Shown here piece by piece: positions 8,465 through 11,468 of a DNA stretch of 64,000 nt. Numbering within the stretch: the stretch's first letter is position 1; every line of letters begins with the position of its first letter. A model generated the notes under the pieces. The model saw only the letters and a list, made by a program, of their open reading frames with translations. It was not told where the DNA came from and did not search any database. Source of the DNA: Lachnospiraceae bacterium (GTDB lineage Bacteria; Bacillota; Clostridia; Lachnospirales; Lachnospiraceae); the NCBI GenBank assembly GCA_021771695.1, contig JAETON010000004.1:1-64000 (forward strand), given 5' to 3'. The position numbers and the translations under genes were made by a program.

Positions 8465-9370
8465 TTATACATTAAGACCTGTCTGCTTTAATCTAAGAAT
8501 CCCTTTTTCCAGCATCTGTGCCGGACGGTATGACATTTTTGCTTTCCGAAGACCTTCCTCTCCCAAATCTTCTTCTCTATTTACATATTGGAATCCTTCC
8601 ATTTCATGTAACACAAACTGCTGATTAATCATCGGATATGCACCCTGCACATCTGGAAATGCCTTTTCAATATGCACTACAAACGTATCTGGATTTAATG
8701 CCGGTTCTCCGAGAGATAATCCGACAATCTTACCATCCGCACGAAGAATCCCTCCAACAAGTCCCAACTCCTTATAATAAATCAAACTGTTTTTGGATAC
8801 ACAAATTTCTTCGTGTTTATCAAGATCCTCCGGTGCACAATTTTGCATCTTCCATTCCATAAGCATTGCCAATGCTTCCAACTGGTTTTCATCATTTAAC
8901 CGTTCATATGACCATTCATGATTCTCTTTGAAACGATTAATATGATTCCTCTTTCCGTGAAGCTTTTTCCCTCGTAGAGTCGCCAGACTTTCCCTCTCAT
9001 AAATATAATCTGCCTCATCTCTGTCATATTCTATTTCAAAAATATCTCCAAACATATCTTTTATTTGTTCTTCCATTTCATGGGTAATACCATACATGAT
9101 AAATGGAATGCCCTGTTCTTCACAATACTGCATCAACATTTCAATTGCCTTTTTCTTATCTCCTTTTCCCATTGGATAAGAAAAATAAATTCCATCTTCA
9201 TCTTCTTCTTTTGCCACAAATAGACCATCCAGAATTGTATACTGGCATTGGTAAAACTGATTCCATAATATAATATTTGCGGGATTAAAATCACAGCTTC
9301 TGGTAGAATCCTGCTGTAAATAATAATCTAACTCTTTTTTGTCTTCCAAGGTTGGTGTCTTGAACTCCAT
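8465..9370 (-). CDS. DUF2156 / phosphatidylglycerol lysyltransferase-like GNAT-fold protein
   Basis: 301 aa; LHGKRNHINRF, GLSLGEPALNPDTFVVHIEKAFPDVQGAYPMINQQF typical of DUF2156. Confidence 0.82.
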   Translation of the reverse strand: MEFKTPTLEDKKELDYYLQQDSTRSCDFNPANIILWNQFYQCQYTILDGLFVAKEEDEDGIYFSYPMGKGDKKKAIEMLMQYCEEQGIPFIMYGITHEMEEQIKDMFGDIFEIEYDRDEADYIYERESLATLRGKKLHGKRNHINRFKENHEWSYERLNDENQLEALAMLMEWKMQNCAPEDLDKHEEICVSKNSLIYYKELGLVGGILRADGKIVGLSLGEPALNPDTFVVHIEKAFPDVQGAYPMINQQFVLHEMEGFQYVNREEDLGEEGLRKAKMSYRPAQMLEKGILRLKQTGLNV

Positions 9371-9380
9371 GATGTACTCC

Positions 9381-9791
9381 TTATTTATGATATGGTTGAT
9401 TGTTAAGAATCCGATATGCCCGGTAAATCTGCTCTAACAAAGCAGTCCCCGTTAAAGATATATTCAACGAAAATGAAGATACATGAAATTCCTCCATATC
9501 CTCTTTCATTCCTTTGAAACTGCCTATACAGAAATTCAAACTGGATTTCCCTCGAATGGCAGCGTCTTGAATCATATCTGCAAATTCCGGACTCGTCATA
9601 CTTTTTTCCCCAGCAGTTACAAAAAACATCTTTTCACCTTTTTTTTGCAGTTTTTGAAACTGCCTTTCATTTTTTATATACTGCACAGAAACATTAGCAT
9701 ATGACTGAAGCCTCTTCAAATACTCATTCATAGCCTGCTCATATAATGCTTCCGGTTTCTTTTGAAGCAGATAAATATGTAATCTCATCAT
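9381..9791 (-). CDS. Divergent RlmH-like SPOUT protein retaining the RlmH C-terminal tail
   Basis: 136 aa; RlmH-like N-terminus, C-terminus LLEQIYRAYRILNNQPYHK; lacks canonical IGGSxG (IGSFKG instead) and MTFPHQ. Confidence 0.8.
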   Translation of the reverse strand: MMRLHIYLLQKKPEALYEQAMNEYLKRLQSYANVSVQYIKNERQFQKLQKKGEKMFFVTAGEKSMTSPEFADMIQDAAIRGKSSLNFCIGSFKGMKEDMEEFHVSSFSLNISLTGTALLEQIYRAYRILNNQPYHK

Positions 9792-9797
9792 AATTAA

Positions 9798-10454
9798 TCA
9801 TTCACTGCCTTTCAAAAAATCTTTCAATTTTTTATCTTTTTTCAACGCTTTTTCATACTCATTATTAATTTTATCAGTTAAATCTCTGATTTCCTGATGA
9901 TTTAAACTTTGTTTTTTGGCGTTTCTCATCTCATCTGTATAATGTTCTTCATTGTTGTAAATGACAAAAGACTTGCCTTTTTTTACAATATAATATGGTG
10001 TCATCCCCGGTGCCAGCGTATCAATACCTTTGATTTTTAATTGATATGTAACATATACAAGAAAAGAATTCTGGTCTGCACCATACTCTGCCTTATAAGA
10101 TAAATCCCGGTATTCCTCCACATACTGACTTAAACTTTCCTGTCTTTGGCGAAGTTCTATATCATCCTCTACCATAGGTTTTAAAGCATTTAAATCATTC
10201 TTCTGCATATATTCATAATAATCTGCCATGAAGCTTTTTACTTCTGTGAATTCATCTTCTTTTTCCTCTTTGGTATCTTCTTTCGGTGCAATCGTCTCTG
10301 TACTGCCATTAGAACTTTCTTCCCGAAATATTTTTTCATTTGTAATCTTGTCCGTATGAAGCTGGTCCAATTTTAAAAATAACAAAAAACAGGCAGCAAA
10401 AAAGAATACCCAGCTAAATACGATAATAACAATTGTTGATTTTTTTAATTTCAA
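9798..10454 (-). CDS. Membrane-anchored hypothetical protein
   Basis: 218 aa; single N-terminal TM (TIVIIVFSWVFFFAACFLLFL), acidic linker, soluble C-terminal domain. Confidence 0.7.
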   Translation of the reverse strand: MKLKKSTIVIIVFSWVFFFAACFLLFLKLDQLHTDKITNEKIFREESSNGSTETIAPKEDTKEEKEDEFTEVKSFMADYYEYMQKNDLNALKPMVEDDIELRQRQESLSQYVEEYRDLSYKAEYGADQNSFLVYVTYQLKIKGIDTLAPGMTPYYIVKKGKSFVIYNNEEHYTDEMRNAKKQSLNHQEIRDLTDKINNEYEKALKKDKKLKDFLKGSE

Positions 10455-10563
10455 AATAAATCCTCCAGTCCATAAACAGTATCACCTGAGATTTCTCTCT
10501 ATTATACCATTTTTGAAAATAAAGGCAAAGAAATTTAAAAAAAAGTAAAAGCAGATTCTAAAA

Positions 10564-10590
10564 TTGACAATAAGTTCAGAAAAATATAAC
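10564..10590 (+). promoter_or_regulatory. Putative promoter for the truncated rlmH
   Basis: TTGACA (10564-10569) and TATAAC (10585-10590), short 15-bp spacer; an alternative -10 TAACAT gives a 17-bp spacer. Confidence 0.45.
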
Positions 10591-10622
10591 ATAGATACCA
10601 TCAAAATATGAAGGAGACTGTC

Positions 10623-11069
10623 ATGAAACTGCAAATTATCTGTGTTGGAAAATTAAAAGAAGATTATTTAAAAAAATTGATTTCACATTATGCAAAAGAA
10701 ATACAAAAAAAATATGCTTTTGAAATCATAGAACTTCCAGATGAAAAAACACCAGACAACGCCAGTAAAAAAGAAGAGTTAAAAATAAAAGAAACCGAAG
10801 GAAAACGTATTTTATCAAAAATTCCTCCGGACAGCTTTGTAATTCCATTGTGTATTGAGGGAAAACCCTTTTCTACCAAAGAGTTTCAACAAAAGTGGCA
10901 AAATCTTTTACAAAGCAATATTCCTTGTACCACATTTATCATTGGCGGTTCCCTTGGATTATCAAAAGAAGTGGTCTCCCGCGGCAAATTGAAACTGAGC
11001 TTTAGCAAAATGACATTCCCTCACCAACTAATGCGCTTGATTTTAATTGAACAATTAAGCCTGCTCTAA
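10623..11069 (+). CDS. rlmH: RlmH-type 23S rRNA pseudouridine-1915 N3-methyltransferase lacking the conserved C-terminal tail
   Basis: MKLQIICVGKLKEDYLKK..IIELPDEKTP..FIIGGSLGLSKEV..LSFSKMTFPHQLMRLILIEQ, then stops at LSLL. Start at 10623 is preferred over the ORF-track start at 10608 because of the GGAG RBS. Confidence 0.88.
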   Translation: MKLQIICVGKLKEDYLKKLISHYAKEIQKKYAFEIIELPDEKTPDNASKKEELKIKETEGKRILSKIPPDSFVIPLCIEGKPFSTKEFQQKWQNLLQSNIPCTTFIIGGSLGLSKEVVSRGKLKLSFSKMTFPHQLMRLILIEQLSLL

Positions 11070-11468
11070 TGCAGCTTCAAACATCCGGTAAATTTCCGGG
11101 TGTTCTTTTTTAACATTGATTGGCTTTAAATCCTTCGTCACCATTCCATGAGTTGTTTTTCCTGTTGCAATCAAGTCCTCTCCTCTTGTTACTTTATAGG
11201 AAAATTCAAGACGTACAGGTGTCAGTTTCGTAAGTAATGTATGAATCTGCAGTTGATCTTCATAAAATGCTGCCTTTTTATATTTACATTCCAACCCTGT
11301 CAATGGTGTAATAATTCCTTTCTTTTCTACTTCTGTATAAGTAATACCTGCTGCTTTGATATAATGTGTTCTTGCCAATTCAAACCAAACTGCATAATTA
11401 CTGTGATGAGCGATGCCCATTTGATCTGTCTCTGCATACCGCACTTCAATTGTTGAAATATGTTCCAT
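11055..11468 (-). CDS. Acyl-CoA thioesterase (hotdog fold, YbgC/FadM-like)
   Basis: 137 aa; VRYAETDQMGIAHHSNYAVWFELAR signature. Confidence 0.92.
   Translation of the reverse strand: MEHISTIEVRYAETDQMGIAHHSNYAVWFELARTHYIKAAGITYTEVEKKGIITPLTGLECKYKKAAFYEDQLQIHTLLTKLTPVRLEFSYKVTRGEDLIATGKTTHGMVTKDLKPINVKKEHPEIYRMFEAALEQA

Follow-up and report, generated by a model that had tools for sequence, protein, structure and literature searches.

A tail-less RlmH and a short tailed homologue as the probable halves of one divided 23S rRNA methyltransferase in Anaerostipes and other bacteria

In the stretch of 64,000 nucleotides analysed here (the window), which comes from a Lachnospiraceae genome, two genes encode RlmH homologues: one is a tail-less RlmH and the other a short homologue that has the tail. 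They are referred to as L and S, respectively, hereafter. We consider it probable (about 0.83) that L and S form an obligate heterodimer with a single composite active site, which would methylate pseudouridine 1915 (Ψ1915) of 23S rRNA. The dimer, its activity and its substrate are inferred from the following observations: the gene content, the partition of residues between the two proteins, their RlmH folds, the purifying selection on both genes, their co-occurrence, the repeated loss of the tail, and an S-carrying element that truncates rlmH. In the proposed mechanism, L would supply the knotted AdoMet pocket (bights 1–3), and S would dock across the dimer interface, giving both the C-terminal tail (E138, R142, Y152, H153, K154) and the partner-side basic patch that binds H69 (K25/R26).

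RlmH (YbeA, OrfX) is the N3-methyltransferase of Ψ1915 in 23S rRNA and belongs to the Pfam family PF02590, in clade 4 of the SPOUT enzymes. It is normally a symmetric homodimer with two equivalent active sites, of which a single one is used on the 70S ribosome. The positions of L, S and their motifs are listed in Table 1. The open reading frame of L opens at 10608, and the ATG at 10623 is favoured as its start by an AAGGAG motif at about 10611–10616. L matched the Pfam model SPOUT_MTase (PF02590) with 149 bits (cut-off 27) over model positions 1–141 of 154, the last 13 positions being absent, and its truncated C-terminus overlaps the 3′ end of the convergent thioesterase gene. It also exceeded the cut-off of the NCBIfam RlmH model NF000985 (183.6; cut-off 172) and stayed under that of TIGR00246 (134.8; cut-off 149.7). 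S matched PF02590 with 82.7 bits (cut-off 27) over positions 1–154, and missed every cut-off of the NCBIfam equivalog models. An earlier note, made from the letters alone, had described the core motifs IIGGSLGL and LSFSKMTFPHQLMR in L, the lack of a tail of about 14 residues there, and, in S, a good tail (EQIYRAYRILNNQPYHK at its end) together with IGSFKG in place of IGGSxG and the loss of the TFPHQ segment. All of these descriptions were confirmed, that of the missing tail by the end of the PF02590 match. A point new to the present analysis is that the EYxKRL segment (E. coli R25/R26) has been retained by S but lost from L as well. The neighbouring genes are regarded as context only: membership of the 218-aa gene in the L/S system is not shown, and in several congeners the beginning of the LPG_synthase_C gene can also be made out behind S.

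Table 1. Genes and motifs discussed in the text (window coordinates, except for the last row)
Feature	Position	Strand	Remarks
L, tail-less RlmH, proposed AdoMet-binding subunit	10623..11069	+	148 aa; PF02590 and NF000985 matches
L, IIGGSLGL, AdoMet bight 2 (E. coli GGPEG 103–107)	10938..10961	+	G103/G104/G107/L108 100% in 32 L
L, LSFSKMTFPHQLMR, AdoMet bight 3 (E. coli 122–133)	10995..11036	+	T126/P128/H129/R133 100% in 32 L
L, truncated C-terminus LILIEQLSLL-stop	11037..11069	+	E138 kept, Y141–R154 lost
S, short RlmH homologue, proposed tail-donor subunit	9381..9791	-	136 aa; PF02590 match
S, EYLKRL (E. coli E22–R26), partner-side RNA-binding patch	9708..9725	-	K25, R26 equivalents 100% in 38 S
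S, catalytic tail EQIYRAYRILNNQPYHK (E. coli E138, R142, Y152, H153, R154)	9384..9434	-	residue conservation in 38 S
Gene between L and S	9798..10454	-	218 aa; N-terminal membrane segment; no known family; 6 nt upstream of S
LPG_synthase_C (PF09924) gene	8465..9370	-	directly downstream of S, 10 nt gap
4HBT/YbgC-type thioesterase	11055..11468	-	convergent with L; 15-nt overlap of the gene ends
Element with serine recombinase, complete type I restriction-modification set and S	G525:C15:5000-24000		

In the E. coli enzyme, monomer A binds AdoMet and monomer B gives the catalytic tail; R25, R26, R142 and R154 are the RNA-facing residues of monomer B, and mutants of E138, Y152, H153 and R154 are inactive (Koh et al. 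2017; PMC5430550). When 66 full-length RlmH, 32 L and 38 S proteins were aligned to E. coli RlmH, the residues of the two monomers were found to be sorted between L and S. On the AdoMet side (G103, G104, G107, L108, T126, P128, H129, R133), conservation is 98–100% in the full-length proteins and 100% in L, and L122 is likewise invariant in the 32 L; the corresponding values in S are 63% (G103), 29% (G104), 3% (G107), 8% (L108), 26% (T126), 5% (P128), 0% (H129) and 0% (R133). On the partner side (E22, R25, R26, Y141, R142, I146, Y152, H153, R154), conservation is 98–100% in the full-length proteins and 100% in S, with K at positions 25 and 154; the values in L are 9% (E22), 62% (R25), 19% (R26), 9% (Y141), 28% (R142), 9% (I146), 0% (Y152), 3% (H153) and 0% (R154). 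E138 is retained by both (94% in L and 97% in S), and the monomer A residues K42 and R43 were uninformative, since R43 is not conserved in the full-length proteins. L has lost the R25/R26 patch independently of its tail truncation, and this loss was not a criterion for finding the proteins. This partition is, at the level of sequence, the strongest evidence that L and S divide one enzyme; the reciprocal motif loss claimed in the earlier note turned out to be near absolute over the 32 L and 38 S.

The same partition bears on another reading, namely, that S is an autonomous homodimeric enzyme or an RNA-binding regulator acting on another substrate, while L uses some other tail. The signatures of all three AdoMet bights are missing from S (see H129, G107 and R133 above), which makes it improbable that S alone is a SPOUT enzyme, and the conserved residues of S are those given by the partner protomer. 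S does occur alongside full-length RlmH in Bacillus mediterraneensis and Paenibacillus alkaliterrae, and would thus not strictly need L, as far as gene content can tell; apart from these two bacilli, however, it was found with a tail-less RlmH. We regard an autonomous S as very unlikely.

As for the heterodimer, both of its proposed subunits are predicted to have the SPOUT knot fold, with solved RlmH structures as the first matches of both models. The AlphaFold2 model of L (pLDDT 92.6) deviates by 1.0–1.1 Å from S. aureus RlmH/OrfX; that of S (pLDDT 91.6), in which the helix after bight 2 is missing, has RlmH structures as its best PDB matches (TM about 0.8).

The window belongs to a draft genome of 2.85 Mb (99.96% complete), the close relatives of which are named Anaerostipes, a gut bacterium. 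A search of this whole draft found exactly two RlmH homologues, L and S, and no third rlmH. A single tail-less L and a single S were also found in each of 11 out of 11 Anaerostipes genomes, of which three are single-contig, and none of the 11 has a full-length copy. A full-length rlmH elsewhere in the genome, or in close relatives, had been put forward as an observation that would refute the pairing; neither objection survives. A local mutation or an assembly error as the cause of the tail loss in L is ruled out by the presence of the same pair in all 11 genomes. L and S are separated by 0.8–4 kb in most Anaerostipes, but by 23 and 38 kb in two of the genomes; linkage is thus not a requirement. 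Between close Anaerostipes pairs, dN/dS is 0.08–0.10 for L and 0.06–0.12 for S (more distant pairs are saturated); these low values indicate that both genes are under purifying selection, and hence maintained. The H69 target sequence is unchanged in three complete Anaerostipes genomes. It was absent from the window's own draft with two mismatches allowed, and the 23S gene seems to be missing from that assembly.

To see the pair in a wider context, 299 Lachnospiraceae genomes (298 genera) were surveyed, almost all of which have a single RlmH. The split pair was found in 10 of them, that is, in two Anaerostipes and eight other genera, and no full-length RlmH stands beside it in the latter eight; the remaining genomes with two matches proved to be contig fragments. 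A survey of the class (393 genomes) added the pair in further families (G349, G385 and G622, G418, G450, G563, G613), and genomes reached via named loci added Youngiibacter fragilis, several Lachnospiraceae and one Sumerlaeota bin, for which a binning error cannot be excluded. The two genes are adjacent and in the same direction in four genomes, and tail to tail within about 200 bp in several. The tail was present in 30 of 30 low-scoring single-copy genomes, the 3′ ends of single-copy rlmH having been examined only among the best matches listed. Among the intact assemblies examined, no L without S was found; S without L was seen in draft assemblies (G468 and an Epulonipiscium bin). The occurrence of either gene alone had also been named as a refutation: for L it is not met in intact assemblies, while S does stand beside full-length RlmH in the two bacilli. 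Four apparent exceptions to the co-occurrence (G105, G264, G073, G439) were traced to contig ends or frameshifts.

Three side observations were made in these surveys. One is a clostridial genome of 1.5 Mb (G516; C1:1494966-1495702), in which a strongly shortened L (129 aa) adjoins an S-like frame, the pair as a whole being strongly degraded; judging from these frames, it is possibly the most reduced split RlmH seen. Another is a clostridial genus (G646, G573) with a divergent full-length RlmH that ends in YDK or YNK, without H153, which is reported to be essential in E. coli. The last is that rlmH appears to be broken in G586 (C16:744-1109), where no S was found, and is present only as a fragment in G396 (C62); these lineages may have lost m3Ψ1915.

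A few such genomes with a broken or absent rlmH lend some support to a further reading, in which L is an RlmH in decay or in a new role, without methylation activity, S is a relic of unrelated function, and the two have no joint function. It is also true that L alone and S alone each lack residues essential in E. coli RlmH. Decay is, however, difficult to reconcile with the dN/dS of 0.06–0.12 for both genes, with the complete invariance of the AdoMet side in L and of the tail side in S across distant taxa, and with the strict co-occurrence and repeated joint appearance of the two genes. We judge it very unlikely, and retain the heterodimer as the preferred reading.

The history of the two genes was examined with RlmH trees. 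The S proteins of Lachnospiraceae, other Clostridia, bacilli and Sumerlaeota lie on one side of a branch with support of 99/99, and this distinct clade rejects S as a recent Anaerostipes duplicate. Thus, the subfunctionalisation proposed in the earlier note stands, on sequence evidence, as a division into an AdoMet-binding half and a tail-donor half, but not as an origin by local duplication. When the tail and EYxKRL columns were left out, tail-less RlmH occupied five places in the tree: the main clade, which includes Anaerostipes; G385/G450; G418; G525; and G395. The rlmH genes of the last two, which bear elements, fall inside their own families. A single origin of tail loss was rejected (p-AU 0.0029), with the reservation that the columns are few and the branches long. 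The tail would appear to have been lost in about five separate events, with S in the same genome each time; well-supported branches underlie only three of these contrasts, a number insufficient for a sign test. The distances among L and among S proteins are correlated (Mantel r 0.78 over all pairs and 0.57 with one per genus), which is expected from co-inheritance and reflects partly shared ancestry, and would be no proof of interaction when taken alone. The trees are limited by their long branches.

A possible agent of the tail loss was found at rlmH itself. SCCmec and the Enterococcus cassette chromosome (ECC) are CcrAB serine-recombinase elements located in the 3′ end of rlmH (PMC6222049). 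In G525, rlmH ends in ...INMGER-stop, only YHK being lost, and is followed by a 704-aa serine recombinase (Resolvase, Recombinase and Zn ribbon) and by HsdR/M/S genes; S lies near the far end of the element, and beyond it is the half-site GEPYHK-stop, so that the bounds span about 16 kb. This element resembles SCCmec and ECC in its large serine recombinase by rlmH, its insertion in the 3′ codons and its att half-sites at both ends; it differs from them in that rlmH is left without YHK and S is carried. By analogy with SCC, the island may be a composite one, since another half-site resembling that of rlmH (GELYHK) is located near contig position 601. The congeners of G525 have intact rlmH tails and no S: G717 shows an uninterrupted, empty site, and G370 (C17:45000-60000) has a related recombinase at the same site, where the junction re-encodes YHR. 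In G395, which belongs to another family, the junction sequence at the end of rlmH is the same, and S and the region upstream of it share 92% identity with their G525 counterparts over 460 bp; the rest of the element is gone. Citrate-lyase genes lie between the two genes in G395, but were rejected as cargo of the element, being unlike cargo; only the rlmH-side arm remains.

In B. mediterraneensis, S lies about 3 kb from a full-length rlmH with the altered end YHTKP, in an island with Mu/Tn7-like transposition genes and a defence-like pair of DUF2326 and ABC-3C domains. In P. alkaliterrae, where S adjoins a type I restriction gene, rlmH has an intact end (YHK). Carriage of S on phages or plasmids was discounted, the matches to the G525 S there being full-length RlmH by length; a scan of viral contigs gave one RlmH match, of full-length size and at a contig end (IMGVR_UViG_3300034684_000212), which is perhaps host DNA flanking a prophage. 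No recognised element was found at L/S in Anaerostipes.

These data lead to a proposal for the origin of the pair. SCC-like serine-recombinase elements would insert in the 3′ end of rlmH, remove the YHK codons and bring S as a replacement tail; with the tail supplied in trans by S, the rRNA methylation of the host would depend on the element. In Anaerostipes and others, the pair would now be fixed without a recognised element. That S began or spread on such rlmH-truncating elements, making host methylation element-dependent and creating the heterodimer several times, is put forward tentatively, at somewhat less than even odds: one genome (G525) shows the element origin clearly, and a second (G395) retains a remnant. 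Alternatively, S may be of chromosomal origin, with elements acquiring it later. On the best reading, SCC-like elements would account for at least part of the spread of S. The 3′ end of S, which encodes PYHK like the rlmH attachment site at which the elements insert, could also be taken to mean that S is kept mainly as a decoy attachment site, shielding rlmH from cassettes. Yet the selection acts at the amino acid level over the whole of S, including K25/R26 far from the 3′ end, and L is already truncated in the genomes with the pair, which leaves a decoy function scarcely credible.

Returning to the heterodimer, to our knowledge the known SPOUT methyltransferases are homodimers or monomers, and RlmH is the standard example of an asymmetric site used by a symmetric dimer. 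In the literature within reach of our search, which left out subscription papers, RlmH is described only as a homodimer, and neither a heterodimeric RlmH nor an rlmH element carrying a tail-donor RlmH was found. The L/S pair shares with RlmH/YbeA/OrfX the fold, the sequence family, the roles of the composite-site residues and the predicted target H69 (PMC5430550); the difference is that RlmH/YbeA/OrfX is encoded by one gene and forms a homodimer, each chain of which contains the two halves of the site, whereas in L/S the halves are in two genes. A partial parallel is the trypanosome AdoMetDC, which forms a heteromer with a catalytically dead paralogue, prozyme (PMC6221367). A catalytically incomplete paralogue is needed there for an active enzyme, as it would be in L/S, but AdoMetDC/prozyme consists of one catalytic subunit and an activating partner, while L and S would each give half of one site.

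The pair is of significance in several respects. One is practical: both genes are at risk of the label RlmH in annotation, although neither alone is expected to be active. Another is that a site split over two genes would amount to a test, by evolution, of the published composite-site model, the residues of the two protomers being sorted almost perfectly. The last is that the pair would represent a concrete route from a homodimer to an obligate heterodimer, taken in several lineages and associated in at least one of them with a mobile element that breaks rlmH and brings the spare part.
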